Assembly: GCA_033439255.1 (NCBI GenBank)
Contig: CM065891.1
Location: forward strand, 1,953,741 to 2,017,740
From: Hericium rajendrae
Taxonomy: Eukaryota; Basidiomycota; Agaricomycetes; Russulales; Hericiaceae
Reading direction: 5' to 3'
Length of the DNA: 64,000 nucleotides
Of this stretch, positions 1 through 24,905 are shown piece after piece. Position 1 is the first letter of the stretch, and each line of letters starts with the position of its first letter. The translations under genes were made by a program, and so were the position numbers. The notes beneath the pieces were generated by a model. The model did no database searches, was not told the origin of the DNA, and saw nothing but the letters and a program-made list of their open reading frames with translations.

Positions 1-650
1 GTGCAGTGGGGCACCGTGGGGCATGGCGAACGTGCGCTCGGCGTGGCAGGCATGCGCGGGATGTGGCGGGCGTGCGCGGGACATGGCGGGCATGCGCGAG
101 ATGTGGCGGGTGTGCGTGAGGCGTGGCGGGCGTGTGTGAGGCGTGACGGGCGGATACGAGGCATGATGGGTGCGAGCGGGGTGCTGGCTCGTGCGTGAGG
201 TGCAGCGGGGAGCAGCAGGACACAGCGAGGCAGCAGGCCCGCGCATGGCCACGCACGACATGTGCGCATGCGTGTGCTGGCTGGCGTGCCCGCGCGAGGC
301 TGCGGCTATCAGCCTGCTGTACGTACGCTGGTGGGGCCACACGCAGCACAGCCGGGTTGCACGCAACCCATGGGCTCATGCACGAGATGGGCCACGCACA
401 GCACGCCTGGCCCGTGCGCCACGCAGCAGCACTGTGTGCTGGATCGCGAGGCCATGCGCGAGGCAACGGGCAGGCGTGGGCATTATTTGGCGAGATGCAT
501 GTGCTGGCGCATGCAGATGTGGGCGTTGGGAGACAGCATGCCAGCCACTGCGGGCGTGACAGCGATGTTGAGCGATGGGGAGGCGACGGCGAGGCGACGG
601 GAGGAGATGGCGGGAGGAGACGGCGGGAGGTGACGGTGAGGCGATGGCAG
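1..650. repeat. GC-rich island of copy A with 20-21-bp minisatellite
   Basis: The first 170 bases are an imperfect tandem repeat of about 20-21 bp, with core GCGNGATGTGGCGGGC rich in GCATGCGCG. The rest is GC-rich with scattered related motifs. Open frames on both strands here follow from the composition (few stop codons) and resemble no family, so they are not called as genes. Confidence 0.6.
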
Positions 651-689
651 GAGGGGGCAGGGAGAGGCACAGGAGAGAGCAGGTCGAGA

Positions 690-1320
690 GTACCACTCGT
701 ACGAGCAGTACTGTCTACATTAGCATGAATAGACACAGATAGTTTTTTTTTACTCACCTTATGGCCCCTCGTCACCCTACTACCCTCCTTCGGTGTTCGG
801 TTTGAGACGGGAGAGGACGGAGGGAGGGAGAAGGGTTGAGTGGTGGTGGGAGAAGAGTCGAACGTGGAACATTCGAACTTCGACGCACATTCAGCCATCG
901 AACGCGCGCGAGTTCGAATGTTTCGAGCGTAGTAAATCAATTTAAATAGAAAAAAATCAAATAAAAAGCGAGTAAATACAACTCATTGATAGAATGCAAT
1001 TTAATGAGCTCATTATCTATCTACTGTATTACAGGCTACCGGGCAGCGACACGAACTTAATGATGTCTGCTGCCTTAGCCTCTGATGCAGCGTCCAGCAG
1101 CGCCCGGGCCGAGTCGCGTCACCCACATTTGGCGCTCCGCTCGCCATGTCTATATAAGGCATGCGCGACTCGCTTTCTCTCTCTCTTCCTTACCACTACC
1201 ATCTCTCGTCTTTTGTCATCCCTCTTCTTCTACTTTGACTTTCTTATGTTTGATTACGATTCCTTAGAATCGTTTACTCTATACCGGCTTTTCCTATCGA
1301 AAACGACACCAAAACGATGA
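690..1320. promoter_or_regulatory. Divergent promoter module, copy A
   Basis: On the plus strand a CCACATTTGGCGCTCCGC box (1123-1140) precedes a TATATAAGG element (1151-1159) and a CT-rich presumed start region (about 1170-1240). On the minus strand, the complement of ACTCACCT near 750-760 gives a splice donor AGGTGAGT that would end an outgoing leftward exon. The same boxes in the same order recur near 18.2-18.8 kb (inverted), 22.4-22.95 kb and 23.7-24.26 kb. That conservation argues for a functional Pol II promoter rather than chance. Promoter activity is inferred. Confidence 0.55.
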
Positions 1321-2238
1321 CCATCCCCATTTGGCAGTTGGCTTATATAATCACAAGTCAACAATCTGACGAGTTTGCAGGTTCAATTCCAGTTCAACCT
1401 TGAATTCTTTTCTTTCATTTTACAATCAACATATCTCACTGTTACTGTTCACAATCATTATATAGAACATTTATATCTCATTATGATTTCTTGGAATCAT
1501 TTACTCTAACTAATTTCTCATATAAAGTGAGGTTATAAGTTTGATTCTGCCAATTGCCATTCTTATAATTTTGGATATTTCTTAGAGATGTTCAGTCTTT
1601 CAAATCTAACTAAATCATTGTTAGACTATATGCATATTTAAATCAATGCTAGTCATATTAGGACCAGAAGTTCTCAGTATGAAAAAGTGCAAACTTGTTA
1701 CAAGATAGTGAATAAATGTACTTCATAGTAAAGTCTGTATCTTTTTATTGATGTAAGTGAGTGTGATATATGGTAATATAATGAGAGCAAATTTTACCTC
1801 CTCAGAACATTTGTTTTCATAACAATAGGTCCAGAAATGACTGAGATATGAGCAAATCACTTCAAAAGATATCCTTGAGAAGGAGATCATAGTGATTGCA
1901 TTGTAGTGGAGCAATGAGTGGTGCTATTTACACGCTAAAGATACCGTTGGAAAGGTCTGATTTGCACCTTTCCAACGGCATATTATACAAGACGATCGGA
2001 TAAGTATTGAGAAAACGCGGTAGTGATTACTGAAGGGTTGGTATTAGAGGTAGGGGCAAACTTGTTGAGGCCATATCTTTTTATCGACTCATCCAATTGT
2101 AGTGTACCTAGTGTTGTTGAAAAGGTATAATGGAGATCTTTCTGACGCAATCAAGGGACCGATGATATCTCCAGTACTTAAGGAGGTACACTCGAATTAT
2201 CACAAAACCTCCTATTTGCCTATTTTCAAGGTCTTACA
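1321..2238. other. AT-rich non-coding stretch
   Basis: The sequence is A+T-rich with stop codons in all frames and no recognisable gene. It lies between the copy A promoter and its mini-exon block. It probably belongs to extra insertions, because the same interval is only about 100-150 bp in copies D and E. Confidence 0.4.
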
Positions 2239-2240
2239 TA

Positions 2241-2326
2241 ATCCGCAGCACGGGCAAAATGACATACTCCCGTCCCATGACATCATGAGGGGGACGGGAG
2301 TACGTCATTTTGCCCGTGCTGCGGAT
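2241..2326. mobile_element. 86-bp hairpin MITE flanked by TA
   Basis: The sequence begins ATCCGCAGCACGGGC and ends with its reverse complement, forming a nearly perfect stem of about 37 bp around a short loop. A TA dinucleotide sits on each side (2239-2240 and 2327-2328). TA flanks and a short palindromic body are what Tc1/mariner-derived MITEs show. No coding capacity. Confidence 0.6.
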
Positions 2327-2645
2327 TACATAAGCAATTTATAAGCAGGAAAAAATCGAAAAAATCATTCAAGTCTAGGGCAAATCATCAGATCATCTGA
2401 GAATAGACACATACTGAGTAGTATAAAAAATCAGTAAAAATCGTGTTAATATGGCCATTGATAGTACTATTTAGAAACACTTGAGTTTATGTTTATAGCT
2501 AGAGAATTGACAGAGATATAGCCAAATTACTGATTCAGACCCCTAGAAGGCAAAAATAAAATCAATCTAGACAACATACAACAGTTGACAGACCTTCAAA
2601 GGCCACACTTATGTACTTCATAAATGTAAACACAATTAATGAGAA

Positions 2646-2691
2646 GTCACGTGCAACAGCGAGCCTGACCGAGCTCGCTGTTGCACGTGAC
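2646..2691. repeat. Perfect 19-bp-stem hairpin
   Basis: GTCACGTGCAACAGCGAGC at 2646-2664 is followed after about 8 bases by its exact reverse complement (2673-2691). It could be a very short MITE remnant or a structured RNA segment. No target duplication was found. Confidence 0.5.
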
Positions 2692-2853
2692 CATTATTTT
2701 GTCATTAGTTCAACTCTTGCTGGTAGCAAAGTTTAAAAATAAGAGATAAGTGTAAAACAATATACTTTGAAGATGGAGATCTTTGCAGTATGACAATACT
2801 AGTATATTCAATTCTCTGTTATCTTATTAATTCTGTGAGCATAACACTACAAA

Positions 2854-3254
2854 CATCAGGAACCTCCAAAACTTTCTGATGGATCCTGCAGAGTCTGATC
2901 AACTGCAAGATCTGATTCAGCTGCAGGCTCTAATTAGAGGACAATTTTTGATCAGAGATTTTATATTTTGAAGTCAATAACTATTGGCAGATATAGTAGT
3001 CATCCAACTCTAATCATTGGATGCAACAAAGTTTTCAATATCTAAAATTTATATGAATCTGATCAGTTCTGATCAGTCTGCAAGCATTCTGCATTGATAC
3101 TTTTTTGAATCTTGAGGTCAAATATTCTGCAGCTAGCTGAGAGTAGCTGATGCTGTCTGAGAGTGTCTGATGTGTCTGATGCAACTGCTGCAGATCATGC
3201 AGACACTGTCAGATGCCTCGCAGGTCAAACAGAAAGTTTTGAAGGTTCCTGATG
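2854..3254. mobile_element. 401-bp CATCAG MITE with 2-bp AA duplication
   Basis: The left end CATCAGGAACCTCCAAAAC is matched in inverted orientation by the right end with one mismatch over about 25 bp. AA flanks both ends (2852-2853 and 3255-3256). The interior is packed with short CTGAT, TCTGAT and CTGCAG motifs, a subterminal-repeat style, and has no open frame. The termini match the larger family (CATCWG ends, 2-bp duplication), so it is read as a miniature relative. Confidence 0.6.
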
Positions 3255-3299
3255 AAGTTAGAACAATTTAAAAGGAATCGTATTGCCGTGCAGAGCATC

Positions 3300-3580
3300 G
3301 GCCCTCTTCCCCCAAGTAAGTTGTTATATTGTTTTATTATCTCTAACCTTATATTATTTGTGGCCTTTGCATTTTCGCTTTTTTATTTTTTTGATATGTT
3401 GTTATATTGTTTGATTGCTTCTAACCCTATTGTTCTTTGTAGACTTTGGGAGCATTTTCGCTTTTATTTTCTTAGGTAAGCCTTATGTTTCATTTTATTT
3501 TCTTGTCTTGTAATACTAATTTGTTGACTTCTTTTGTAGATCATTTTCGCTTTTTCTTATCTTTATAGTAAGTCTTATCT
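3300..3580 (+). ncRNA. Mini-exon block of copy A (putative spliced leader transcript)
   Basis: A pyrimidine-rich end of exon 1 is followed by donor GTAAG at 3316. Three segments containing ATTTTCGC follow (about 3371, 3454, 3543). Most have a TTTGTAG-like acceptor upstream and GTAAG or a variant downstream. Equivalent blocks occur at 18.04-18.20 kb (minus), 22.94-23.13 kb and 24.25-24.44 kb. No reading frame is kept, so a non-coding or untranslated leader transcript is inferred. RNA evidence is not available here. Confidence 0.4.
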
Positions 3581-3769
3581 TTCTTATCTTTTATCTATCT
3601 TATCTTTTATCTTATCTTATCTTATAGTCTAATCATATTTTGTAGTTTATTATAGATAGTATATTATAGATTTATTAGTAATGTTTGTAATAGTGTACAA
3701 GATGTATTCCTTGAAATTTAATGCTTTTAAATCTTTGATATTTTGAATATTTGAGATATGCTAGCATCC

Positions 3770-4120
3770 TATGAGCAAGATTGTTGGTAGAGGTAACATA
3801 GAGTAGATAGCAGTCTTACTAGCTAGATATAATATGATACTAAGGATATATCATATAGATAATATAGCTACAATAACCATCATATACTATGATAGCTATA
3901 ATAACTATTGTCCTATAGTAGATGACTATGATGGCTATAATAGTTAGTGCTTCATCTTATGATAGCTATGATAGCTATGATAGCCCTAGATAGATTGCCT
4001 TGCTGCTATGAGAAGCTATGTAGAAAAGAAGACTGCTATGAGGAGCTATATAGAAAAGGAGACTGCTATGGCCCTATCAGAGCTATATAAGCTATATAGT
4101 GTTATATACCACTGTTATAT
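3770..4120. repeat. TAGCTAT-type subterminal array (copy A, right end)
   Basis: Dozens of imperfect TAGCTATGA/TATAGCTA motifs lie just inside the element's right terminus. Arrays of the same motif lie inside the ends of X, D and E. Arrays of short motifs next to the termini are typical of transposase-binding subterminal regions, for example in CACTA elements. Confidence 0.55.
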
Positions 4121-4130
4121 TTTTCAGATG

Positions 4131-4529
4131 GAGGCTCGGGGCCCGTGCGCGACAGGGCGGACACGCGCACGATGCGCGGCTGGCCTGTGTGCAGGAGGCT
4201 TCTGGGCGTGAGGTCCGTGCGCAAAGCGCGGAGGGCCGGCACGAGGCATTGAGCTGCGGCGGGTCTGTGCGCGCAATGCGGCAGACCTGCACGCAGGAGG
4301 TGCAGGATGTGAGGTTCACGCACAAGGCAGCGGGCCTGTGCGCGAGGCACGAGAGGCATGCGTGGGGCATGGGATGCTGGCATGGGGCGTTAGGTCCATG
4401 CGCGAGATATCGGGCTGAGGCGGGCCCATGCGTGAGACAAAGGCTTGCGCGCAAGGTGCGATGGCCGCACACAGGAAAGTGGCATGGGGCGCAAGGTGTG
4501 GGGCCCGCGTGCGAGCATCGCACTGCCAC
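4131..4529. repeat. GC-rich island of copy E, segment 1
   Basis: About 400 bp of GC-rich DNA, rich in GTGCGCG motifs, sits between the right end of copy A and the left end of copy X. Removing X and one AC joins it directly to 20442-21025, which has the same composition. It is therefore read as part of the E island rather than host gene sequence. Open frames on both strands (about 80-166 codons) reflect composition only. Confidence 0.45.
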
Positions 4530-4929
4530 CATCTGAGAAAAACACCAGAGGTATATTGCACTATGTAGTCTACATAGTTCTAATAGGGCCATAGCAGTCC
4601 CCTTTTCTTCATAGCCATCTCATAGTAGCAAGATAATCTATATAGGGCTACATAGCTACCATAGGAAAAGGCAGTAGCTATGATAGCTATTATAGCTATC
4701 ATAGCATAGAGCATATGCTATCATAGCTACTATAGCTATCGAGCCCATTCAGTACTAATTCCTGTACAGGAATGGTGAGCCAAACTGACACCGTCGCATT
4801 CTAGATTGGCGAGCTCACGTTGGCCAACATCCCAGTGTAGTCATAGTAGTATGGCCAGAATGACAGTCTTAATTATCATACCCCATTGCCCGGGAATGTT
4901 TGCCTATGCCCCTATACCTGACAGTTAGT

Positions 4930-5935
4930 TACCATGCAGTATTGTCTGGCCAACTATGCCATTTCTGCAATCAAATATGCCTGGCCAAGTGCAAAATATT
5001 CCTCGGCCTGTATGTATGCTGAAATGGTTGGCCAAAGTATAATCCAATACACTGCGGCATCCCACGGCATACCAGTATGCTTGGCCAATATCCAATATGC
5101 TGTGAGGCTGCATGACTGTATGGTTGGCCAATGTGCATATCCTTTCGGCACTGACATGCCGCTATGGTTGGCCAAAGTCCCATATAATTATGCACTACCA
5201 TTTCGGCTTGATTGGCCAACATCACATATATTTAACTGCGGCATGCCACTATGGTTGTCCAGCATCTGATACATCTACCTGCAGCATGCCGCTATGGTTG
5301 GCCAATGTCTTGTATAATTATGCACGAGCATTCTGCCTTGGTTGGCCAGCATCTGATATTATATACCCTATCATTGCACCTTGATTGGCCAACATTTGAA
5401 ATATTTTACCGCAGCATGCCGCTATGATTGGCCAACATCTGAAATATTTTACCGCGGCATGCCACTATGGTTGGCCAACATCTGAAATATTTTACCGCAG
5501 CATACCACTATGGGTGGCCAACATCTGAAATATTTTACCGCAGCATGCCACTATGGCTGGCCAACATCTGAAATATTTTACCGCAGCATGCCACTATGGC
5601 TGGCCAACATCTGAAATATTTTACTGCAGCATACTGCTATGGTTGGCCAATGTCTCGAGTATTTAACTCAACTGTTCCAGCTTGGTTGGCCAGCATCTGA
5701 TATTATATATCCTACTATTGCACCTTGATTGGCCAACATTTGAAATATTTTACCACAGCATGCCACTATGATTGGCCAACATCTGAAATATTTTACCGCG
5801 GCATGCCACTATGGCTGGCCAACATCTGAAATATTTTACTGTAGCATACTGCTATGGTTGGCCAACATCTCACATATTTAACTTTATCATCCTGCCTTGG
5901 TTGGCCAACATACACATCTGTTCTGTATTATTATT
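4930..5935 (+). repeat. 43-bp TTGGCCAAC satellite, left arm
   Basis: Units run TTGGCCAACATCTGAAATAT, then TTTACCGCAGCATGCCACTA and TGG. They are near-regular at 43 bp between about 5390 and 5660, and more diverged with 31-48-bp spacing toward the outer end. The whole array is reproduced in inverted orientation at about 16.52-17.50 kb. Confidence 0.75.
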
Positions 5936-6292
5936 CTGCAGCATTTTCAGATATCCTGTGGCATTTTCAGACATCCTATGGCATTTTTGAATATCTCACA
6001 GCATTCCTCAATATCTCGCAGCATTCTCAGATATCTTGCAGCATTTCTAGACATCCTGCAGCATACCTGCATATCCCACAGCATACCGGCATATTCTGTG
6101 GCATCTCTGGATATCCTGTGGCATTTTCAGATATCCTGCAGCATTTTCGGATATCCCACAGCATTCCTTGATATTTCACAGCACTCTCAGATACCTTGCA
6201 GCATTTCTGGATATCTTGCAGCATTCCCGGACATCCAGCAGCATACCTGCATATCCCGCGGCATTTCATAATATCCCATGACATTCTCCAAT
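5936..6292 (+). repeat. 20-bp GCATTYYYRATATCYYRYRG satellite, left arm (outer part)
   Basis: Tandem 20-bp units of the form GCATTTCTGAATATCCCGCA repeat with point variation. The array is cut by the Gypsy element after 6292 and continues at 13396 once the CCAAT duplication is accounted for. Confidence 0.8.
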
Positions 6293-6715
6293 TGTCAAGA
6301 CTCGGTCGTAGACAGCAGAGAACCACCCAAGTCACCAGCGATGATGGGAGCGAGAGAGCAGAGAGCGACTAGCAGCGCAGTGACCTGTATTGGAGGTACA
6401 GTACGGTACAGACGAAATGGACAATCTAGGGAAATAGGCGAGCGACAGGGAGCCTATAAGTACTGGGACGACAATGGGAAAAGAACAATGGACACCATAA
6501 CGGGTCGAACAATAGAGTGAGAACAATGGTGGCCAAAAGGAGAACAATGGGAGGGAGAACAATAGGATGTCCCAAAGGAGAACAAGGGCATGGGTGAAGG
6601 ATAGCCCCAGGTCATGTGAGGAAGTGAACATGTGATGGGGCTGCTGGAGCACATGACCGACGCGATGCCTTGATGGCAGAGAAGAAGGCGGAGAGAAATG
6701 GAGCGATCCGTGACA
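6293..6715 (-). repeat. 3' LTR of the Gypsy element
   Basis: The LTR is 423 bp and starts TGTCA, ends TGACA in element orientation. It is nearly identical to 12973-13395; I see C/T near 6349 and A/G near 6578 as the only differences. A purine-rich tract (complement of 6716-6731, AGAGAGGGGGTGA) lies next to it as the expected polypurine tract. Confidence 0.93.
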
Positions 6716-9700
6716 TCACCCCCTCTCTAAGACGCACTTTCGCCTGGAGTGCGTGATGAGCATGGACGGGATCGAGGTAGATGAGTCCACGAAGATTGGG
6801 AGCCTTGAGTGCATGCGGATGGCGGGTGTAGAAGTCGGTGATTGCACCATGGGCATTGGAAAGGGAGGTACGTGAAAGCCACTGATTTTCTGAATCAGGG
6901 TAGCCTGCCCATTTGACGAGATATTCAATGCCGCGTTTGTTCCGAGTGAGACGAGCATCGAGGACAGACTCAACTTCGTACTCTTCCTCGCCCTCCACAA
7001 GGTCAGGTGGTGGTGCAGGGAAGTTGGGACCATGAGCATCGGTTTCCTTGTAAGGGGACAACAGGGACGTGTGGAACACCGGGTGGATATGCTAGGTGGG
7101 TGGTAGCTTCAGTCGATAAGAGACTGGGCCCAGGACGTCAGTGATTTTGAAAGGTCCCAGGCGTCGATCAGCAAGCTTAGCTTTGGGTCGTGTGGTTTTG
7201 ATGTTCTTGCCATCGAGCCAGACCTTGTCACCAACCTGGAAGTGGATGGTGTCATGCATATGGTCCTGGTTGTTGCGCTTCATGAGATCAGCAGCTGTTT
7301 GAAGGCTGGCCTGGACCTCAGTGCAAAGTTGTTCGAGGTGACGGAAACGATCCTCGACGGCGGGTGTAGACGATGTGGGGTTGACAGTGGGGATGGCAGT
7401 GGGAATATAGCCGAGGAGCATTTCAAATGGAGCTCGGTTAGTGGCGCTGTGGATACGGTGGTTGTGCGAGAACTCAGCGTAAGGGAGCCATTGGACCCAA
7501 TCATCCTGACGGTAGTTGCAGAAGGTACGAAGGAACTGCTCGAGTTCTTGATTGACGCGTTCTGACTCACCATCGGTCTGTGGATGATAGGCGGTGCTGA
7601 GGGAGGACTTGATACCAAGTTTGTCAAAGACGCCACGCATGACTTTGCCTGCATACTGTGGGCCACGATCAGAGATGAGGCGTTCCCAGAGGCCGTAGTT
7701 CCGATAAATCCTGTCAAAAAGGATGTCGACTGTGCCATCACTGGTAATGGTCTCGTTACAAGGAGTGAAGGAGACGTGCTTTGTAAAACGGTCGACGACC
7801 ACATTGATAGAGTCATAGCCTTGGCATTCTGGGAGTTTGACGATGAAGTCCGAGGTAATGTCTTGGAAGGGACAGGTAGGGATGGCATTGGGGATTGTTT
7901 CAACATGGGGGCGGTGATTTTGAACCTTGGTGGCCTGGCAGGTAGCACAGCCATCGACATAATCACGAATGAAGACAGACATACCGGGCCACCAGTAGTT
8001 GCGACTGAGGAGCTCATAGGTCTTGTAGCGTCCGGGGTGACCAGCCATGGGAGTGTCGTGATGCAGCTTGACGATATCTCGCCGAAGGTCCTTGTCAGCA
8101 GGGATGTAGACTTTGCCACGAAAGAGGATGAGGCCATCCTCATAGTTCCATTCTTGGAGGTTCTTGACGAGGGAGCGAGGACCGTTGTTCAGGATCACGT
8201 CAAGGGCTTGAACGACCTCAATATCCTTGGTCTTGGCATTGCGAATGCGTTGGCGAAGATCAGCATTGCCAATGGACTTGACAGCGGCTGGATGTGTAGC
8301 ACGAATCTGGAAGTACTTGGGGTCGAGGAGGACACGATCTGAGTTGTCGTCGTCCACCCCCTCTCTATGGTCAGGTCATCTCGACATGGCATCTGGCCGG
8401 TGATGAATACCGGGTTTGTGGATCAAGGTGAAGTCAAAACGAGTGAGGAAGAGAGCCCAGCGAGCCTGACGACGACTCAGCTTTTGGGCAGACTTGAAGT
8501 ATTCCAGGTTCTTATGGTCGGTTCAGATCTCCACAGTATGGGGAGAGCCTTCCAGGTAGTGGCGCCAGGCTTCGAGGGCACGGATGATGGCCAGGAGTTC
8601 CTTGTCATAAATGTCGTAGTTGCATTCAGGGGCAATGAAGGCCTTGGAGATGTAAGCAACAGGGTGCCATTGCTCGTCCTCCCTGCGCTGGGATAGGATA
8701 CCTCCTGTGGCATAGTCTGAGGCATCGACCTCAACCAAGTAGGGTTTGGACGGGTCAGGCATGATAAGGACTGGGGACGAGGTGAACGCAGCTTTAAGAG
8801 CCTCAAAGGCATGTTGACATTTAGCAGACCAGGCCCAAGGATGGTCTTTCTTGGTAAGGTCAAACATGGGATGGGCGACTTTGGAGAAGTCCTGGATGAA
8901 GCGTCGATAGAAGTTGCCAAAGCCAACAAAGGACTGGACATCCTTGACGTTACGGGGGGCAGGCCATTCAGCGATGCCTGCAACCTTGACGGGGTCCATG
9001 GCAAGCGTGTTATGGGAGACGATGAGACCGAGGAACTCAACGGAGGGCTGCTCGAAAGAGCACTTCTCTGGTTTGAGGAAGAGGTCATTGTCCTGGAGGC
9101 GTTGGAGGACCTTGCGCACAAGGTCGCGATGTTCTTCGAGGGTTTCGGTGAAAATGAGGATATCGTCCATGTAGATGACGACTTTGCCCGTGTCGATGAG
9201 ATCCTTGAAGAGTTCATTCATCATTCCTTGGAACGTGGCAGGGGAGTTTGTAAGACCAAAAAACATCACCAGGGGTTCAAAGAGACCGCGGTTGGTTTTG
9301 AAGGTGGCTTTCCATTCGTCGCCCTCCTTGATGCAAACGTTGTTGTAACCCCAACGAACGTCCATCTTGGAGAAGACTTTGGCACCCTTGAGCTTGTCAA
9401 CGAGTTCAGAGATGAGGGGCAGGGGGTATTCATTCTTGATGGTGCCCTTGTTGAGGGTGCGATAGTCCTGGACGGGGCGTAGTTTTCCATCTTTTTTCTT
9501 GATAAAGAAGAAGGGACTCGCCATAGGGGATTTGGAAGGACGGATGTAGCCTTTTTTGACCTGGTCATCAAGGAACGAATCGAGGTCCTCCTGCTCAGTG
9601 GGAGCCATGGGATAGACCTTGCATGAACGGGGTTCAAAACCATCTTTCAGGTCAATGGCGTGATCCTGGCAAGGGCGACGTTCAGGAAGGTGATGGGAGG

Positions 9701-10720
9701 ATTCCTCATCGAAGACGGGTTGGAAATCCTGGTACTGAGGGGGAACCATCTCAGCAAAGGACTTCTCCGCAACATGGGCGGCCACACGCTCAGCCAGTTT
9801 CTGAGCATTGGTGAAAGAGCGACGGATACGGATGGTATGTTGGTAGTCAGGGTCATCGTCTGGTGGGGGTGGTGTGTCCCAGTCAGGGAGAACACCAGCT
9901 AGGTGAAGGCCCTCTTCAACCCAGTCATCGTCGACATTAGGTCGTGGGTCATCGTCCTCGGTGAATAGACGTGCAGGGACTTTGGACAGGTGGATGTGGC
10001 GAAGACGGACACCTTGGACTCGGCGAGCAGGGATCACGTATTTGGGAAGTGGGGCAGGAACAAATGGCGGGGGCAGTGGGAGCAATGGAGGGGGCAAGGT
10101 GGGGGGAGCAGTACAGCAGCGGTACTGAGGACTGGTGGACGAGGGGCTGATTGGCGGCGTTCTGAGCGAGTGGACAGGTTTTTGACCGGGGGCTTATTCA
10201 GGGTGCAAGAGGGAGGGCAGCGAGTCATGTCAACACGACGAGAGACCCAATCAATTTCAGGGTTGTGTTCCTGTAACCAATCGGTCCCAAGGATAATGTC
10301 ATAGTCGCCAATATCAACGAGATAGAACTCAGCTGTCTCCTCATGGAAGGACGTCGAGTCCTTGGCGTAAATGCAGATGTTCTGGTTGACTGAATAGCGG
10401 ACCCAGCCCATGATGTTTTCGGAGTTGTCCACGTTGCGAACGGGAAAGGGTTTAGGGAGTTTCTTGAGGGGGAACTGGTGTTTCTTGGCAAACTCGGGGT
10501 GCATAATGATGCCTTCTGCACCACTATCGAGAAGTGCCTCAGCGTCGATTTGTTTCTTGATCGGGGCAGTGATAATCTTGGCCTGGAGCGTAATGGACGG
10601 TGTCTGATGGTTGGGTGTGATAGCGGACATGCGCAAAGACGATGGATATGATTGCTCACAGGGGTCGGATAGTACAGAGAAGTGATTCGACGGATCAAAG
10701 AAATGTTTCTTGCCACCCAC
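6612..10720 (-). pseudogene. pol: Gypsy pol: protease, RT, RNase H, integrase, chromodomain (disrupted)
   Basis: Protease lies in the first frame (10720-10034), with active-site LLDSGAEG. RT/RNase H follows in another frame from 10097, with the YMDD catalytic box and the FFIKKKDGKLRPVQDYR motif. Integrase (from about 8357) has the zinc-binding HHCC region ending CATCQ, then D, D (SDRGPQY) and E of the catalytic core. The chromodomain (about 7000-6830) contains EYLVKWAGYPDSENQW. RNase H, integrase and chromodomain share one frame broken by three stops. At 8522 and 7080 a conserved Trp should stand, and at about 8386 an Arg. All three fit G:C to A:T transitions. The frame change after protease could be programmed or a mutation. 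The last frame ends inside the LTR. Confidence 0.9.
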
Positions 10721-10743
10721 GGATGACGTGACCGGGGGGCGCT

Positions 10744-12671: not shown

Positions 12672-12972
12672 GTCGACGTCAAAGGAAACTCGAATTCGAA
12701 CGTATAAGGCAATGGAGATAGCACCTGCACGTGGTTTTCACGACCTCAATCGAAACCAAACTCCTTCGGCTTCCCAATGCTTCACAGCACAATAGCGGAG
12801 GAGGGGGATGAGTGCACTGCCCTCGATGGTGTTGGCGATGGGAAAGGGGAGATGAGGTTGATGGAATGGATGTCGGGACTCGGTGAAGATGTCGGCGGTG
12901 AAGGGTTCAAAGAAGAAAGGTATGATGGGCGATAGTAGGGAGGTGAGGCGGGTGTACGAGAGATTGTCCAGG

Positions 12973-13395: not shown

Positions 13396-14430
13396 CCAAT
13401 ATCCTGCAGCATTTTCTAATATCCTGCAGCATTCTCCATATCCTGTGGCACTCTCAGATATCTTGCAGCATTTCTGGATATCCTGTAGCATTCTCAAACA
13501 TCCAGCAGCATACCTGCATGTCCTGCAGCATTTTTCAATATTTCATGGTATTCTCCAATATCCCACGGTATTCTCTAATATCCCACGGCATTCCTCAATA
13601 TTCTGCGGCACTCTCAGATACCTTGCAGCATTTCTGGATATCTTGCGGCATTTCTAGACATCCAGCAGCATACCTGCATATCCCGCAGCATTTCTGAATA
13701 TCCCGCGGCATTTCTGAATATCCCATGACATTTTCCAATATCCCACGGCATTCCTCAATATTCTGCGGCACTCTCAGATACCTTGCAGCATTTCCGGATA
13801 TCTTGCAACATTCCCAGACATCCAGCAGCATACCTGCATATCCCGCAGCATTTCTCAATATCTCGCAGCATTTCTCAATATCCTGTGGCATTTCTGAATA
13901 TCCCGCAGCATTTCTGAATATCCCGCAGCATTTCTGAATATCCCATGACATTCTCCAATATCCCGCGGCATTCCCTAATATCTCACGGCATTCCCCAATA
14001 TCCCGCGGCATTCCCCAATATCCTGCGGCATTCTCAGATATCTTGTAGCATTTTCTAATATCTCGTGGCATTTCCTAATATTCCACGGCATTCTCTAATA
14101 TCCCGCGGCATTCTGTAATATCCTGTGGCATTTTCAGATATCTTGCAGCATTTCTGGACATCCAGCAACATACCTGCATATCTCACGGCATTTCTCAATG
14201 TATCATGGCATTCCTCAATATCCTGCAGCATTCTCAGATATCTCACAGCATTTTCAGATATCCTACATTGTGAGATTTCTAAATATCCTCTGACATTCCT
14301 GGATATTTTACTGCATTTTCTAGATATCCTATGGAATTCCTGCATATCCTGTGGCATTACTGCATATTCTCAAGCATGCCAGTCATATCTCACAGCATGT
14401 TGACATATCCTACAACCTGTCTAGATATCC
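13396..14430 (+). repeat. 20-bp satellite, left arm (inner part)
   Basis: Continuation of the 20-bp array after the Gypsy insertion, with higher-order blocks such as CATCCAGCAGCATACCTGCA recurring several times. The order of variants matches the inverted array at about 15.1-16.2 kb. Open frames of 70-160 codons here are by-products of repeats without stops. Confidence 0.8.
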
Positions 14431-14921
14431 CACAGCACACCTATATATATTTTTAGCATATCCATATGCATCTTGAGCATCTTAAAATAATCATATAATA
14501 CAATGTATTGACATCTAATGTGCCATAGGCATAATTAGTTACACTTGCAATAATCAGATACATCTGATGGAGCTATAATTTCAGACTCCGGAGATTGCCG
14601 AGCCATAACAGAGGCTAATTTTGCAGACCTGCACTAAGTAATATACATTGTCCAGTACTCTACTAAACATTGGTTACAAATCTATCACATTTCATAACAC
14701 TATATGAATTGAAGGTATGTACTATTGTTTGCTTGAATTTTTTATCATTTGATTTGATTTATTGAAGCTCAAACATCAAAGGTTTGCAGAGAAGCATTGT
14801 AGCTGTACAACTAAACACGTGTCAAGAAGCCTGACTGCCATTAGCTACCATCCTTTTTTATTTTATCCTATTCTCTGTCATTCCCTTGCACTCACTCTTT
14901 AACATTACTCTCTGCTATAGA
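14431..14921. other. Non-repetitive loop of the foldback element
   Basis: About 490 bp of AT-rich sequence separates the two satellite arms. No open frame, RNA gene or protein similarity was seen. It could be the remains of an internal coding segment. Confidence 0.5.
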
Positions 14922-16500
14922 ATATCCTGACATGTCATAGTATATGCCAGTTTGCTGCTGGATATCTGAGAATGCTGTGGGATATTTAAAGATGCTACGG
15001 GATATGCACGTACACTGTGGGATATTAGGAAATGCCGCGGGATATGCAGGTATGCTGCCAGATGTTCAGAAATGCTGCCAGATATCTGGGAATGCTGCGA
15101 GATATCTGAGAATGCTGCAGGATATTGGGGAATGCCATGATACATTGAGAAATGCCGTGAGATATGCAGGTATGTTGCTGGATGTCCAGAAATGCCGCAA
15201 GATATCTGAAAATGCCACAGGATATTAGAGAATGCCGTGGGATATTAGAGAATGCTGTGGGATATTAGGAAATGCTGCGGGATATTGAGAAATGCCACAA
15301 GATATTAGAAAATGCTGTGGGATATGCAGGTATGCTGCCAGATATCTGAAAATGCTGCCAGATATCTGAAAATGCTGCAGGATATTCAAAAATGCCGCAG
15401 GATATTAGAAAATGCCATGGGATATCTGAAAATGCTACAGGATATCCAAAGATGCTGTGGGATATGCCAATATGCTGTGGGATATGCAGGTATGTTGCAG
15501 GATATGCAGGTATGCTATGAGATGTTTAGAAATGCTGCAGGATGTCCAGAAATGCTGCAAGATATCTGAGAATGCCACAGGATATTGGGGAATGCCGCGG
15601 GATATTGAGGAATGCCGTGAGATATTAGAGAATGCCGCAGGATATTGGAGAATGTCATGGGATATTCAGAAATGCTGCGGGATATTGAGAAATGCTGCGG
15701 GATATGCAGGTATGCTGCTGGATGTCTGGGAATGCTGCAAGATATCCGAAAATGCTGCAAGGTATCTGAGAGTGCCGCAGAATATTGAGGAATGCCGTGG
15801 GATATTGGAGAATGTCATGGGATATTCAGAAATGCCGCGGGATATTCAGAAATGCTGCGGGATATGCAGGTATGCTGCTGGATGTCTAGAAATGCCGCAA
15901 GATATCCGGAAATGCTGCAAGGTATCTGAGAGTGCCGCAGAATATTGAGGAATGCCGTGGGATATTAGAGAATACCGTGGGATATTGGAGAATACCATGA
16001 AATATTGAAAAATGCTGCAGGACATGCAGGTATGCTGCTGGATGTTTGAGAATGCTACAGGATATCCAGAAATGCTGCAAGATATCTGAGAGTGCCACAG
16101 GATATGGAGAATGCCGCAGGATATTAGAAAATGCTACGGGATATTGGAGAATGTCATGGGATATTATGAAATGCCGCAGGATATGCAGGTATGCTGCTGG
16201 ATGTCCGGGAATGCTGCAAGATATCCAGAAATGCTGCAAGATATCTGAGAGTGCTGTGAAATATCAAGGAATGCTGTGGGATATCCGAAAATGCTGCAGG
16301 ATATCTGAAAATGCCACAGGATATCCAGAGATGCCACAGAATATGCCGGTATGCTGTGGGATATGCAGGTATGCTGCAGGATGTCTAGAAATGCTGCAAG
16401 ATATCTGAGAATGCTGCGAGATATTGAGGAATGCTGTGAGATATTCAAAAATGCCATAGGATGTCTGAAAATGCCACAGGATATCTGAAAATGCTGCAGA
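14922..16500 (-). repeat. 20-bp satellite, right arm (inverted)
   Basis: The same 20-bp satellite in reverse orientation (GATATTCAGAAATGCYGCGG units). The order of variants mirrors the left arm, including the intact counterpart of the Gypsy insertion site around 16140-16170. Confidence 0.8.
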
Positions 16501-17510
16501 ATAATAATACAGAACAGATGTGTATGTTGGCCAACCAAGGCAGGATGATAAAGTTAAATATGTGAGATGTTGGCCAACCATAGCAGTATGCTACAGTAAA
16601 ATATTTCAGATGTTGGCCAGCCATAGTGGCATGCCGCGGTAAAATATTTCAGATGTTGGCCAATCATAGTGGCATGCTGTGGTAAAATATTTCAAATGTT
16701 GGCCAATCAAGGTGCAATAGTAGGATATATAATATCAGATGCTGGCCAACCAAGCTGGAACAGTTGAGTTAAATACTCGAGACATTGGCCAACCATAGCA
16801 GTATGCTGCAGTAAAATATTTCAGATGTTGGCCAGCCATAGTGGCATGCTGCGGTAAAATATTTCAGATGTTGGCCAGCCATAGTGGCATGCTGCGGTAA
16901 AATATTTCAGATGTTGGCCACCCATAGTGGTATGCTGCGGTAAAATATTTCAGATGTTGGCCAACCATAGTGGCATGCCGCGGTAAAATATTTCAGATGT
17001 TGGCCAATCATAGCGGCATGCTGCGGTAAAATATTTCAAATGTTGGCCAATCAAGGTGCAATGATAGGGTATATAATATCAGATGCTGGCCAACCAAGGC
17101 AGAATGCTCGTGCATAATTATACAAGACATTGGCCAACCATAGCGGCATGCTGCAGGTAGATGTATCAGATGCTGGACAACCATAGTGGCATGCCGCAGT
17201 TAAATATATGTGATGTTGGCCAATCAAGCCGAAATGGTAGTGCATAATTATATGGGACTTTGGCCAACCATAGCGGCATGTCAGTGCCGAAAGGATATGC
17301 ACATTGGCCAACCATACAGTCATGCAGCCTCACAGCATATTGGATATTGGCCAAGCATACTGGTATGCCGTGGGATGCCGCAGTGTATTGGATTATACTT
17401 TGGCCAACCATTTCAGCATACATACAGGCCGAGGAATATTTTGCACTTGGCCAGGCATATTTGATTGCAGAAATGGCATAGTTGGCCAGACAATACTGTA
17501 TGGTAACTAA
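16501..17510 (-). repeat. 43-bp TTGGCCAAC satellite, right arm (inverted)
   Basis: Mirror copy of 4930-5935, nearly identical unit by unit. It ends in the unique outer arm segment that continues to 17689. Confidence 0.75.
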
Positions 17511-18039
17511 CTGTCAGGTATAGGGGCATAGGCAAACATTCCCGGGCAATGGGGTATGATAATTAAGACTGTCATTCTGGCCATACTACTATGACTACAC
17601 TGGGATGTTGGCCAACGTGAGCTTGCCAATCTAGAATGCGACGGTGTCAGTTTGGCTCACCATGGTCTTATGGAAAATTAGTACTGAATCATGTGAGCTA
17701 TCATAGTATAAGATAGCTATAAGAGCTATGTTCGCTATGTAATATATTCTCATTATCATATTATATCTAGTTCTTTAGACTTCTATCTAACCTATATTAT
17801 CTCTGTTAAGTATATAGCTCAGAGGTACTATCAATACATTATAAAATATAAAATATCATACATTTATCTTATTATATTTGAAGCCTTCAGAATATCGAAA
17901 ATCAAAAAGTATTATGTTATAAACAATATCTCATTGCAACATATTAATATAAGACTACAGATTATCACAAAACTACAATAAACTACAATAGATAATAACT
18001 TACAATCAGCTCAAGCTAGATAAGATAAGATAAAACTAA

Positions 18040-18780
18040 GATAAGATGAAATATAAGATAAGACTTATCTCAAAGATAAGAAAAAGCGAAAATATGATCT
18101 AAACATAGATTAATAAATTAGTACAAGACAAAAGAGATATATACATAAGAATATAAGACATACCAAAGAAAAAAAAAAGCGAAAATGTAAAGTCTACAAA
18201 GAACATTAGAGTTAGTGGACAAGAAGACAACATAGCAACCTACCGAACATAAGAAGGTAAGAGCAGAAGAGGAGCGAATGACGAAAGATGGAAGATGGTA
18301 GTGGTAGGAAAGAGAGAGAGACAGCGCGTCGCGCAGGCCTTATATAGACGTGGCAAGCGGAGCGCCAAATGTGGCTGCCGAGACCGGGCCGGTCATTGCC
18401 GGGCGTCACGCCAGAGGCTGGTCGTTAGATTCTGTTAAGTAGATTGCTATACCTCTGAGCGTATTGTGCAGTAGGTACATAGGTAGCTCATCCATTGTGT
18501 TAGTATGTACATTTTGTACATCTGGCCTTTTTATTTAAATTAAGCCGATTTTATTTGATTTGTTGGAGTCCAAACCGCCAGGCGCGCGAGTCCGTGGCTT
18601 CAGCATTCGACGCGACTTCGTGCTTTCTACAACACTCCCTTCAGCTCTCCTCGTCCCTTCGTCTTCCCGTCTTCACTCCCTTCAACACACGATACCGGGC
18701 GTCGTTGGAAAACCGGGAGGGCAAAGAGATAGTACGAGGGCCGAAAGGTAAGTAAGAAAATACTTCTTTTGTCATCTTGT
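18040..18780. promoter_or_regulatory. Divergent promoter module with mini-exons, copy X
   Basis: Reading leftward (minus), the box complementary to 18357-18374 (CCACATTTGGCGCTCCGC) precedes TATATAA (complement of 18340-18346), a CT-rich leader and two TTTTCGC mini-exons (complements of about 18181-18172 and 18093-18086). Reading rightward (plus), a CT-rich exon at about 18600-18748 ends in a strong donor (GGTAAGTAAG, 18748-18757). A GTACTAATAAA sequence follows at 18782, resembling a branch-point motif. Transcription is inferred from conservation among four copies. Confidence 0.5.
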
Positions 18781-18792
18781 CGTACTAATAAA

Positions 18793-18830
18793 GCGAGTAT
18801 CGCTCATGCAACGAAACGAGCGATACTCGC
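18793..18830. repeat. GCGAGTATCGCTC hairpin, copy X
   Basis: A 13-bp perfect inverted repeat with a 12-base loop lies between the outgoing splice donor and the GC island. The same stem with another loop occurs at 22339-22372. A sequence variant of the stem occurs at 23683-23714. Confidence 0.6.
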
Positions 18831-20090
18831 CCTTGCATTCTCGCGACCCTGCGCACCGCACCGCACCGTCCCACCTTCGACATCCCACGCCGATATCCAC
18901 GAGCCCGCCGTGGCCCCGTCCCCCGACAACGCCATCCGCATCCACGTCGTCGTGTCCCATTGCCGTGGCAACGAGGTGCGACTATGTTGCTCGCTCGGCC
19001 TCCCGCAGCCCTCGCATCCACTCAAACGCCTCCGAACGCCCTCAACAGGTCCTTGCAAGTCCACCACCTCACCAGCTCCATGCGCAAGCACCTCCGCGCC
19101 GTCGACAACACATTCGCGGCCACGACGGATGGATGTACGCGCGCACGGCCACACACGCCTACGGACGGCATCGCCAGCGCCAGCGCAGAGAGCAGGGTCA
19201 CGCATGGCGCGAAGGCCTGCGCAATCCCTGGTCCCAGCCGTATCAATACATGCGCACGCTGTCGCATGCGGGTGCGAGGCCCCACGGAGGCACCTTCAAC
19301 GCTGCACGGCGCGCATGCCCGCGCGAGGCTCCGAGTGCGCGTGCATATCCTCGCATGCCCGGACAACGCGGGCACGTCCATATCAGCTCCGCATGCAGAC
19401 GGTGGGTCCACATGAGCATGCGCGGAGCCACGCAACAACCCGCGCACCCCATCTGCCCTGGTATGGCCTGTGCGCCAACGCCCCGCTCTGCCCACGGCCT
19501 CCCATGGTCATTTCGCCCCGCCCGCGCGAGCAAGACCATCCATGATGGTGTCAGCTCGCGCGCGGCCACGCATGATCCGCAACAACCCGCCCCGCCCTGC
19601 GAATGGCCCGTGCCCCGATGCCATGTCCCGCATACTGCTGCATCACCCCATGCACGCGCGTACGGCCACGCACGGTGGCGCGAGCTCGCTCCAGCCACGC
19701 AGACTCGCGCATCCCGCGCCACCTCATGCATGGCCCGTGCACCGATGCGCCAGCCCGCGTACGGCCCTCGCATGACCACTTCGCCCTGCCCGCATGAGCA
19801 AGGTTGTGCACGGTGGCCCCAGCTCGCGTGCGGCCATGCACGACCCCGCATGACCCCGCATCCCGCCCTGCCCGTGCATCGCCCCGTGCACGTGCTCACG
19901 GCCAAGCACGGTCGTGCCAGCTCATGCGCGGCCTCGTCGCACGACCCGCGCACCCCGCCCTGTCGTGCTGCGACTGCCTGCGACAGCTGTCCGTGCTGCG
20001 CGTATCCCTCCGTATCATTTGTGCCGGTGCGGTAGTGCATGCACTGCTGTGTTGTTACCGCGCGGGGGTGCGGGGCCCATTTGGGGTCTT
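18831..20090. repeat. GC-rich island of copy X
   Basis: About 1.25 kb of GC-rich DNA built of degenerate short motifs (CATGCGCG, CCCGTGC, CACGCACG). A degenerate GTTGCC-GGCAAC palindrome lies near 18955-18977, about 120 bp from the hairpin as in copy D. Long frames such as 18806-20035 (plus, 409 codons) and their antisense partners have Arg/Ala/Pro/His-rich, low-complexity content and no recognisable domain. I regard them as composition artefacts. Confidence 0.55.
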
Positions 20091-20094
20091 TATT

Positions 20095-20430
20095 TACTAG
20101 TCAGTCAGTGTACATTTTGTACTTGCCTTGCCTGTAGTAGTCTACACTTGAATATAATAAATTTTTGACTTGATATCTTGATTGCCTGTCTGACATATGA
20201 TACTGGTTATAGTTATCATAGTACCTGTAGTTTCTCTAAATAAGTATGATAGTCCTATGTATATGACACCTCTAGCTATAAAGGCTATGACACACTATGG
20301 ATTTGACACTTCATGCTATAGAGGCTATCATAGGCCCCATAGCTCCACATAGCTGGATAGGTCAGCTTCATAGCCCCCATAGCTTATTGATAGGGCCCAT
20401 AATAAGACTTGCTGCTATATAAAAATCCTT
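20095..20430. repeat. TAGCTAT-type subterminal array, copy X right end
   Basis: AT-rich DNA with repeated CTATGATAG and GGCTATCATAG motifs lies immediately inside the right terminus. Its counterpart lies at 4560-4745 and continues beyond the foldback insertion at 17690-17800. Confidence 0.5.
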
Positions 20431-20441
20431 TTTCTCAGATG

Positions 20442-21025
20442 ACAGGCCTGCGCACAACACACGGCAACATGCGCAGGTGGGCAGGACCACGCGCGACATG
20501 TGTGTGCGTGTGCTGGCTTGCGTGCATTCCCATGCGTGGTTGGGGCCATGCATGAGCCAGTGAGAGTCCCCGCACCGACATGTGCGCCATACACATCAAG
20601 GACTGGCCACAAGCCAGCATGTGCACGCATTCGTGGCGTTGCACTGGCGCTGTCGTGCAGGGCCATGCGTGTGGGCATGTGAGGGCAGGCGGCGCAGTGT
20701 GTGGCTGCATGACGCGTTGTTGAGTCTCGTTGTCATGGCAACGAGACTCGACGCTGGCCTTGCGGGCCACCCATGGCTCTTGAGGCCATGAGCGTGGTCG
20801 TTGGGTGTGTTCGACGTGATTGGGGCCCTGCCCGAGCCGGTGGGAGCCCCCGCGCATTGTCGCAGCTGTGTGCGCAGGAAGGGGCCCGTCGATATCGCGT
20901 GTGGGTGACGTGTGTCAGCAGTGCAGGCGTGGGTTGTCAAAGGCATGAGAGGTGACAGGAACGGGGAGTGGGGACAAGCGCGGACAGTGCGCGAGAGGCG
21001 ATGCGAGGTGTCGGAGGGCATGCAG
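20442..21025. repeat. GC-rich island of copy E, segment 2
   Basis: GC-rich DNA between the right end of X and the left end of D. It contains a palindrome GAGTCTCGTTG-tcatgg-CAACGAGACTC (20722-20749), the counterpart of the copy D palindrome at 22183-22214. It is contiguous with 4131-4529 on the left and with 23648 onward on the right once X and D are removed. Confidence 0.45.
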
Positions 21026-21399
21026 CATCAGGGAAATTGGAATTCTACATAGCTCAGTGTTGGGTTATGTGGCCTATCAGAGTGCTATGAGATCTATGTA
21101 TCTATTCTTCTCAGCTATGTAGAGCTATAAGATTTATCATAGCTTCCATAGCAGTAGATGGGAGCTATATAGTGCTATATACTTCTGAGGGACAGATATG
21201 ATTGCTATATAAACTTGTTAGATTGCTATGGTCCCTATAGCTCCTATAACCCCTATAGTTAGTGAGTTAGACTCCATAAGCATCCAGTCAAAATTTTCAT
21301 ATTGCACACTCGAAAGCATGGCAAAAATTATATATTTATTGACTCCTACTAAGGGACATTGTAGCTACAACATAGAAGTAATTACAGTAGTGAACACTA

Positions 21400-22330
21400 T
21401 ATCACGAGGCACACGGACTGTGCATGACACGGCACAGCCATGCGCGAGGAGCGGCGGCTGTGCACACGCACGAAATGCGAGGGCCGCAGCAAAGCTCCGC
21501 GTGCGTCGTGAGGGCAATGGGGCCACACGCGAGTCGGCGGGGGTACATGCGAGGTGCGAGAGCCATGCACGAAGCACGGCGGCGTCACGCGCGAAACACG
21601 AAGGCCGTCGCCACGCAACAAAGCCTCCCGCGCATCGCGGGGGCCGAAAATGTGACGGCGGGGCGTGCGCGAAGCATGGAGGGCGTGCGAGCAGCGCGAG
21701 GGCGTGCGCAGTCAGCTGGGCCATGCACGAGTCGCGCGTGGCCGTGCGCGCGACAGCGGGACCATGCATGCGACTGAAATGCTGCGCGCACGACGATGAG
21801 GTCATGCACGCGACGGTGGAGCCATTGGTGCAGCGACGGGGTCACACGCGCGACCGTGGGTGCATATGTGGGTGCCTTGGGCATTCGGGGACGTGCGTGG
21901 GCGCGGGCGCGCTAGTCGGGGGCAGCCACGGGTGCTTGAGCGAGCCGGGGGTGCGAGGGTGCTGTCGGGGACTGAGCGCGGGTGGGCGGAGATGGACGCG
22001 TGAGCAGACAGATGGAGGCGCCGCCGTGTCCGGGTCCGAGCACGCTGTCGCGGGCTTGCGTGGGCTGTCGACGTTGTTCCTGGCGCACTGTTGGCGGCTG
22101 GGGCCATGCCCGCGATGTGGGGCCGAGCGTGGGCGCGCGGACTGCTGGGGCCGTCACGCGTGTCGTACTGGACGAAATTCGCTCGAGCCTCGTTGCCACG
22201 GCAACGAGGCTCGATGAGGTGGGCGGCGTGTACGCCATTGTTGAGGGATGTGGTAGGGGGAGTCCGTGAGCGAGCGTGGGCGTGACGGGTTGTAGTCGAG
22301 GGGGGATGGGTTGGTGTGGGGCGAGAAGAC
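21400..22330. repeat. GC-rich island of copy D with GTTGCC-GGCAAC palindrome
   Basis: GC-rich and low-complexity, with frames open on both strands (up to 329 codons from 21228 plus). It contains the perfect palindrome TCGAGCCTCGTTGCC with inverted partner (22183-22214), 125 bp before the hairpin. No protein family is recognisable. Confidence 0.55.
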
Positions 22331-22338
22331 ACAAGCAT

Positions 22339-22372
22339 GCGAGTATCGCTCGAATAAACGAGCGATACTCGC
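22339..22372. repeat. GCGAGTATCGCTC hairpin, copy D
   Basis: Perfect 13-bp stem with an 8-base loop, next to GTTAGTAC (complement of the GTACTAAT motif) and the minus-strand donor near 22412. Position and stem are shared with copy X. Confidence 0.6.
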
Positions 22373-23130
22373 TTTGTTAGTACAAAGAGATAAAGACAAA
22401 ACTGTAAATACTTACCTTACATGGCCCTCTCCGCATCTGCTAGCCCACCGGAGCATCGAACGACGCTTAGCGTCGTGTGTTGAGCGAGGTTGAGCGAAGG
22501 AAGGCCAGAGTGGAGAGAGGAAAGTGAGAAGTCGTGCCGAAGTCCCTCAGCCACAGAGCACTTGACGCGAGCCCAGGTTTCTTCGACGTCAGAAAATAAA
22601 ATAAAATCGGGATAAATACAGAAAAAAAGAACCTGGTACATATCATTCGTAAGACCAAATTAAATGAGCCAACTAGATACCTCACGGACAGTAGGCTCGC
22701 GAGCAGGGAAGTCAACTTAACCAAGTCTAATTCCTAGCCTTGCTTGCGGTTCTCGGCAGCGCCCGGCAGCCACATTTATGGCTCTGACCGGGCACGTCCG
22801 GGCTCACCCTTATAACGACGCGCTTCGCGCGTCGTCTCTTTCCTCTCAACCACAACAATCTCTTCTGCCACGTCATCATCTTTGCTCGTCGCTGTTTGCT
22901 CGTCGATATCTGCTCGTTGTCCTCTCTGCTTGTCATCCTTAAGGTAAAGTTGCCATTGCTTTCTTTCTTATATTCCTCTACTAACATTAATGTAGAGTAT
23001 TGTTGTAATAGATTTTCGCTTTTTTAATGCTTTGGTAAGTCTACCTTGTAGTCTTGAGTTGTTATATTACTGACTAGTGTTTGTATCCTTATTAGATTTT
23101 CGCTTTTTTGTCACTTTGAGGTAAGTTTCT
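22373..23130. promoter_or_regulatory. Divergent promoter module with mini-exons, copy D
   Basis: Minus direction: a CT-rich exon ends in GGTAAGTA (complement near 22405-22412). Plus direction: CCACATTT (22770-22777) and TTATAAC (22810) precede a CT-rich leader ending at donor GTAAAG (22944). Mini-exons follow: acceptor TAATAG, ATTTTCGCTTTTTT, GGTAAGT (23012-23040), then ATTAG, ATTTTCGCTTTTTT, GAGGTAAGT (23096-23126). These are the cleanest mini-exon boundaries in the window. Confidence 0.5.
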
Positions 23131-23647
23131 TTTGTAGTCTTTTGTAATGACTTTTAGCTAATGCTTATCTTTTTGTAGTGCTTGCATTTAAATTTTTATA
23201 GCTTTTATAGAATGTTTATTAGATTTATTATGTTGTAGTTAAGCAGAGTATAGTAACAAAAATATATTTTGATCAATAATTTGATTGACTTTAATCTGTT
23301 GATGTGATCTTTTATTAAATATGTAAAATTCTACTTGTTGTCTAATTGTAAATTGGATAGTGTAACTAGAGTTTATTGCTTGTATAGATGTGTCAACTCT
23401 ATCTTGTGAATATAGCTCATATCAATGATATAGCTTCTATAGCTCTTATAGCTATGTGTTCTATGATAGTTACATAGTCAGCTATGAGAGCTATGATAGC
23501 ACTTCATAGCATCCTCCATGAGCTTTATAGCACCATATAGCATCTCTCCTTGGCTATATAGGCTATGGAGTAAAGGGCAATGCTATGGCCCTAGGAACTC
23601 TATATAACTCTGATAGGACTATGTAGCACCTCTACATTTTCCTGATG

Positions 23648-24905
23648 AGGGGGTTGTGAAGTGTCGAAGAACAGGCAAAAATGAGAGTCTCGCTCAACAA
23701 CGAGCGAGACTCTCGAGATTAGTACAATAAGAAAAGAATATAAGTCATTTTTTACTCACCTGGATCCCTCTAACTCCTTCTCAAACTATCCAACCTTTAT
23801 GCTGACGGGAATGGTGAGGAATGACGAGTGAGGAAGGCTTGAGAGAGGGAGTTATGAGATGAAGTCGAACGACGCATCGTTCGGTGCTTCAGCCACCGAA
23901 TGAGCACGAGTTCGAATGTTTTCGAACTTAGTAAATCAAATAAAACCATAACAATTAATAAAAAAAAGACCACATATAGCATTTGCTAATAGAATATAAT
24001 TGAATGAGCTTTACATCTATCAAAGGTGTTGAAAGCTGTCGGGCAGTGAGGCAACGTTATTGCAATCTGGCACTTAGCCTCTGACGCGATGCCTGGGCCG
24101 GGCGCCGGCAGACACATTTGGTGCTCCGTCAGGCAAACCCGTGCTCACCTATATAATCCTCGCACGACACACGTTCTCTCTTTCTCTTCAACCACCACAT
24201 TCCCTCTTCGCTCCGACTTTTCTCGGGACTTCATCTTTCATTTCTCGACCTTCGGTAAGTTCTTATCCTTCATCTTTATTGTTCTATACTTATCTTATTA
24301 ATGTCTTAGACTTATATCTCCGCTTTTTTTAACATTTTTGGTATGTTTCAATGTCTTATTATTGTTGGATTAGTACTAACTAATCTACTGCTTTATAGAT
24401 TATATATTTTCGCTTTTTGTAATCTTGGTAAGCTTACTATAATTCTCTTCTTTAGTAGTAAGTGTTAGTAGTGTTGAATTTTATATTAGTGTGTTTATAT
24501 AATAAAATGAATATAATTATGATGGATTAAACAAAGTTTACAATTGTGTGATCCTTTTAATTTAGAATCTGCTGTATAGATGAAATGAAGATTTATAATT
24601 GTAATATGTTCTATTGCTTCAATAGATATATTTAATCTACATATTCAATATAATATATATAAATGATATAAGTGTCATGACTTTGGTAGACACTCATAGC
24701 CTTTATAGCTAGAGATACTATGATAGCTACATAGTTGGCTATGATAGCTATGATAGCACTTCATAGCACTGCCTTTCAGCTCTATAGCACTATATAGCTT
24801 TCCTCTTTAGCTATGAGAGCCTATGCAATAAAGGGCAGTGCTATGAATCTAGGAAAGCTATGTAGGACTTATAGAGCTATGTAACACTTGCAGATATTCC
24901 TGATG
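23648..24905. mobile_element. Copy E of the CATCWG family, right part
   Basis: After the D insertion the E sequence resumes with a GAGAGTCTCGCTC hairpin (23683-23714), minus-strand donor (about 23752), and promoter with ACACATTTGGTGCTCCG (24112-24128) and TATATAA (24150-24156). The leader ends at donor GTAAGT (24255). Two mini-exon motifs (about 24318 and 24405), a TAGCTAT array (24690-24880) and the terminus TATTCCTGATG ending at 24905 follow. The left terminus is not visible and would lie beyond copy A, outside the window. Immediately downstream is hAT transposase coding sequence, so an outward transcript would run into it. Confidence 0.5.

Follow-up and report, generated by a model that had tools for sequence, protein, structure and literature searches.

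Nested PlavakaB-like elements with GC-rich islands in a 64-kb stretch of Hericium rajendrae DNA

We found that the window, by which we mean the whole stretch of 64,000 nucleotides of Hericium rajendrae DNA that was analysed, contains a real chain of nested insertions. According to ends, target duplications and the logic of nesting, the chain runs from a hAT transposase gene to element E, element X, a foldback element and finally a Gypsy element (Table 1). Element D also lies inside E, and A probably does so, by one visible junction. We consider it likely that A, D, E, X and a further element, F, are non-autonomous elements of the PlavakaB type, and that the cluster formed by nested accumulation, no target preference being established. 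A preliminary description of this DNA had suggested that the family targets its own GC-rich islands; the small number of cases in the window gives this targeting no support.

Table 1. Features of the nested cluster and its surroundings (positions within the window)
Feature	Position	Strand	Remarks
Element A, right part	1-4130	+	Right end ...TTTTTCAGATG at 4130; aligns to X, D and E; island from 1 to about 690
2.07-kb block of A, missing from X	1251-3315		Gap in self-comparison; 1104-1250 and 3316-3411 match adjoining X stretches
401-bp element, PlavakaB-like ends	2854-3254		AA on either side; 13/14 end bases match
E island, first visible piece	4131-4529	+	Lies between A and X; GC 0.60 (bin 4001-4500)
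Element X	4530-20441	-	AC duplication 4528-4529 / 20442-20443; about 2969 bp without the foldback element
Foldback element inside X	4747-17689		Arms of 1546 and 1547 bp
Gypsy-type LTR element inside foldback	6293-13395	-	LTRs, CCAAT duplication and domains
Hairpin of X	18793-18830	+	Fold z -6.28
E island, second piece	20442-21025	+	Carries the palindrome of E
Palindrome of E	20722-20749		Fold z -3.93
Element D, complete, 2622 bp	21026-23647	+	AG duplication 21024-21025 / 23648-23649
Palindrome of D	22183-22214		Fold z -6.07
Hairpin of D	22339-22372		Fold z -6.87
Element E, last island bases, hairpin, promoter-like region and right end	23648-24905	+
Hairpin of E	23683-23714		Fold z -5.86
hAT transposase gene, 3' part, adjoining the right end of E	24906-25507	+	Dimer_Tnp_hAT in 25115-25507
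Element F, complete, 2557 bp	30194-32750	+	CA duplication 30192-30193 / 32751-32752
20-bp repeat region of F	about 30590-30985

Termini, duplications and order of insertion

D and X are complete elements, with inverted ends of the form CATC(A/T)G and 2-bp duplications. D starts with CATCAGGGAAATT and finishes with the inverse of CATCAGGAAAATG, between AG flanks, X carries CATCTGAGAAAAA at each end, with AC on both flanks, and the right ends of A (4130) and E (24905) are of the same type. The positions of these ends and the two duplications had been proposed in the preliminary description and were borne out by terminus comparison. The left end of A and the remainder of E fall outside the window, and each of these two elements displays one end. 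A paired-end scan that required matching 2-bp flanks returned four pairs, namely X, D, F and the 401-bp element, and the same scan on 20 shuffled sequences returned 7 pairs in total; a looser scan for CATC..GATG ends was uninformative (357 pairs, 17 with matching flanks). F, the 401-bp relative and the 2.07-kb block of A were absent from the earlier list. Two small inverted repeats within this block, at about 2241-2331 and 2646-2690, were spotted by eye.

According to section 3.2 of Kojima 2025 (PMC12730594), PlavakaB elements have CATCA..TGATG termini and duplications of 2 or 3 bp. Exactly these termini are found at both ends of D and of the 401-bp element and at the right end of E and F, and CATCT, which differs at the fifth base, takes the place of CATCA at both ends of X, at the right end of A and at the left end of F. 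Identical 2-bp flanks accompany X (AC), D (AG), the 401-bp element (AA) and F (CA); the scan itself demanded this identity, which was checked independently for F alone, through the host reading frame. A Pfam scan of 38 out of 118 open frames revealed no Plavaka transposase, which is compatible with non-autonomous elements, since these would lack it. Judged from ends and duplications alone, the elements are most likely non-autonomous PlavakaB-like DNA transposons, which would be moved by a transposase encoded elsewhere and insert with a 2-bp duplication. It seems very unlikely to us that they belong to another CA..TG-ended group with 2-bp duplications, either EnSpm/CACTA or an unnamed branch of the CMCT clade. 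The CMCT groups do have common CA..TG ends and duplications of 2-5 bp (PMC12730594, section 3.1.6), no transposase was seen in the window, and X and A end in CATCT; however, D and the 401-bp element end exactly as stated for PlavakaB.

A, D, E and X share their layout, their end type and subterminal words of the TATAGC/GCTATG type, and their identity over those parts of the right halves that can be aligned is 55-66%. From sequence comparison, they would represent diverged subfamilies with a common layout rather than near copies, and the earlier statement that they form one family should be taken with caution.

F is a true insertion. Removing it together with one CA leaves an open frame that continues beyond the junction, and the joined protein aligns across this point with 33% identity to P0001 of Meripilus lineatus (Polyporales), the source of the sole relative found for a host protein. 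The alignment spans query residues 10-165, and the junction lies at about residue 122-123. Therefore, F landed in a host coding gene, not in an island. Upstream of this gene, a DUF6532 domain was observed at 28618-29052. The hAT gene beside E contains the C-terminal dimerisation region (PF05699, E 5e-12), and its 5' half lies outside the window.

Within X, the arms of the foldback element (4747-6292 and 16143-17689) differ at 12 columns (9 mismatches and 3 gaps), of which 8 are among the first 27, and no clear target duplication was seen at its borders in X. The right end of A aligns with X on either side of the foldback site (score 148), indicating that the foldback element arrived after X. 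The foldback element consists of tandem repeats with units of 43 and 20 bp; it is poor in CpG, and its TpG and CpA are raised (1.37-1.61). The element that it contains has LTRs of 423 bp with 2 mismatches (2/423), CCAAT at 6288-6292 and 13396-13400, and Retrotrans_gag, RVT_1 and RT_RNaseH domains in two open frames (Pfam). By its LTRs, its duplication and its gag and RT/RNase H domains, it is classed as a Gypsy-type LTR retrotransposon; Gypsy and Copia are told apart by the order of integrase. Both containments had been proposed earlier and were confirmed. The nested history as a whole stands for E, then X, then the foldback and Gypsy elements, and for D in E, by ends, duplications and the logic of nesting, and the entry of A into E is probable from its single junction. 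Altogether, E would have landed in the hAT gene and later been entered by X, D and probably A, and the foldback element would have entered X before receiving the Gypsy element, as an ordinary nested accumulation within an already inert stretch.

Composition and folding of the islands

The islands, whose presence was confirmed, have 66-70% GC, a G skew and a strong alternation of purines and pyrimidines (z 7.4-8.8). Each looks like a decayed 20-bp tandem repeat, because lag 20 is the top period in A (z 5.1), E (3.7), D (4.9) and F (14.9) and is within the five strongest in X (2.0). The island is mostly not coding-like. The longest open frames over the islands are near the Markov-1 expectation in A, E and D (p 0.733, 0.220 and 0.367, respectively) and exceed it in X (p 0.037), and none of the 8 open frames over the islands matched a Pfam family above the curated cut-off, the weak matches below it being TT_ORF2-like (E 0.013) and Herpes_LMP1 (E 0.049). 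On these frame lengths and the Pfam result, coding sequence was set aside as an explanation of the island. Rfam, at the gathering threshold over positions 1-33500, returned 0 families.

The hairpins of D, X and E are listed in Table 1 together with the palindromes of D and E; the hairpin of A folds weakly (z -2.05) and the palindrome of X does not fold (z 0.21). Between D/X and E, hairpin pairing is kept while the arms and the loop length vary, an observation on four copies. As far as the sequences tell, such variation would fit a structure more than a binding site of fixed spacing. The palindrome of D and E, half of which occurs in X at about 18960, includes GTTGCCACGGCAAC-like sequence resembling GTTGCCATGGCAAC, the RFX-binding X-box described in PMC4168999, and would be a candidate site for a fungal RFX factor.

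By eye, A, D, E and X have in common a TATA-like box, a site on the minus strand that looks like a splice donor, and short stretches of TTTTCGCTTTTT after which donor-like GGTAAG follows. Allowing 1 mismatch at most, the window holds 9 copies of TTTTCGCTTTTT against an expectation of 0.20; eight are found at this place in A, X, D and E, and the ninth lies in the extra block of A. The GGTAAG/TTTTCGCTTTTT stretches may correspond to exons accompanied by divergent promoters. A promoter word was found in 7 stretches of viral_contigs, which were treated as chance since none of them holds TTTTCGCTTTTT, and a palindrome pattern and a splice-exon pattern each gave 0 matches there.

CpG is near expectation in the islands (0.93-1.24) and occurs 4 times in the element ends, where 69.7 are expected over 2735 bp. 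The repeat region of F is CpG-poor (0.29); thus a CpG-rich island is not universal. Plain methylation decay was rejected as the origin of the CpG-free ends: TpG (0.59-1.28) and CpA (0.67-1.15) are slightly raised at most, unlike in the foldback element, so repeat composition may explain the lack of CpG. We give very little credence to the idea that the elements are portable CpG islands, in which an island of 20-bp repeats would be combined with a conserved hairpin and with divergent promoters giving spliced transcripts, and whose CpG-free ends would shield the transposase sites from methylation while the open island would keep the element active and attract its own kind. If the layout of CpG-rich, promoter-bearing middles and nearly CpG-free ends were general, the way in which DNA transposons of fungi avoid methylation could be tested on a natural case, and the same window also holds Tet_JBP and KDZ domains. 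It is this layout, more than targeting, that deserves follow-up. Tet_JBP, CxC2 and KDZ domains were observed in successive same-strand open frames at 46175-49945, which probably form a TET-bearing KDZ transposon. These domains and the Meripilus relative would by themselves make an Agaricomycete the probable source of the window. A protein search with 55838-57670 found no relatives.

Continuity of the E island and choice of target

Once X and D are removed, the visible E island measures 1016 bp, in agreement with the earlier estimate of about 1.0 kb, and its palindrome and hairpin follow the order seen in D, as had also been stated. The complete ends and the two 2-bp duplications are the main reasons to think that 4131-4529, 20442-21025 and 23648 onward were formerly continuous. 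At the X junction, the A island aligns to the join with a score of 45, compared with 32 and 33 when either piece stands alone, 33 with the order swapped, 32 with one piece reversed and at most 32 in 500 shuffles; moreover, with pieces from the D or X islands as partners of 4131-4529, 45 was reached in 0/400 cases. However, rotating one true piece also reached 45, in 8/400 cases for the second piece and 86/400 for the first, so this alignment is not proof of a continuous island and was dropped as such. At the D junction, the A island supports the join, 0/400 rotations reaching the true score, and the D and X islands leave it unsupported (131/400 and 86/400). That the three pieces never formed one island, their junctions reflecting rearrangement or several partial copies, strikes us as highly improbable: a match over 2 bp arises by chance in roughly 1 case out of 16 and rotated joins frequently equal the true one, but both duplications match at complete inverted ends, the palindrome and hairpin keep the order of D, and the A island fits the true D junction better than 400/400 rotations.

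Six insertion events with this end type can be placed, and the island was struck in 3 of them (X, D and probably A), each time that of E. The other three led E into the hAT gene, F into the host gene and the 401-bp element into the extra block of A, at a place without island features. We simulated six sequential uniform insertions with a free target of 39, 15 or 8 kb. At least three island hits occurred unconditionally in 0.19%, 1.6% and 4.3% of runs, respectively, and in 5.7%, 8.0% and 9.8% of runs given at least three insertions in family DNA. These conditional values indicate that much of the clustering consists of landing in family DNA, which is also expected from nested accumulation in inert sequence. 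Furthermore, the case was picked for looking clustered, and the simulated figures therefore flatter targeting.

A preference for islands of the elements' own kind, whether through open unmethylated island or promoter DNA or through binding of the transposase there, seems rather unlikely to us. The presence of X, D and probably A within one island of about 1 kb, the low unconditional chance, and the CpG richness of islands that adjoin promoter-like sequence speak for it; the three events that struck no island, the conditional chance and the way the case was selected speak against it. Self-targeting, if true, would matter for the growth of transposon clusters, a conclusion for which the present evidence is insufficient. 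We favour ordinary nested accumulation of non-autonomous PlavakaB-type elements, against which count the CATCT ends of X, A and one end of F, the lack of a Plavaka transposase among the 38 frames scanned, and the position of X, D and A in one island at an unconditional chance of 0.19-4.3%.

Comparison with known systems

The closest likeness is to PlavakaB of Agaricomycetes (PMC12730594), in the CATCA..TGATG ends, in the 2-bp duplications (D and the 401-bp element) and in the host group. The elements described here differ in that a transposase was not seen and that CATCT is present in X, A and one end of F; they also have a long GC-rich island, hairpins and splice-like repeats, on which PMC12730594, in the sections cited, is silent. 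Judging by titles and the start of abstracts, the layout of island and CpG-free ends is not described among the matches listed for Plavaka and non-autonomous elements, nor among the matches for CpG islands with fungal transposons, none of which has Plavaka.

In maize, the CACTA element Spm/En has subterminal repeats and a GC-rich region near its promoter, and methylation of this region controls its activity. Likened by description only, the elements in the window resemble Spm/En in their subterminal repeats and in a GC-rich region beside promoter-like sequence, and differ from it in that Spm/En is a coding plant element with CACTA ends. In the FB foldback elements of Drosophila, short tandem repeats build up long inverted arms. 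The foldback element in X has similar arms, again likened by description only; it is fungal, with no duplication found, and its repeat units are of 43 and 20 bp.
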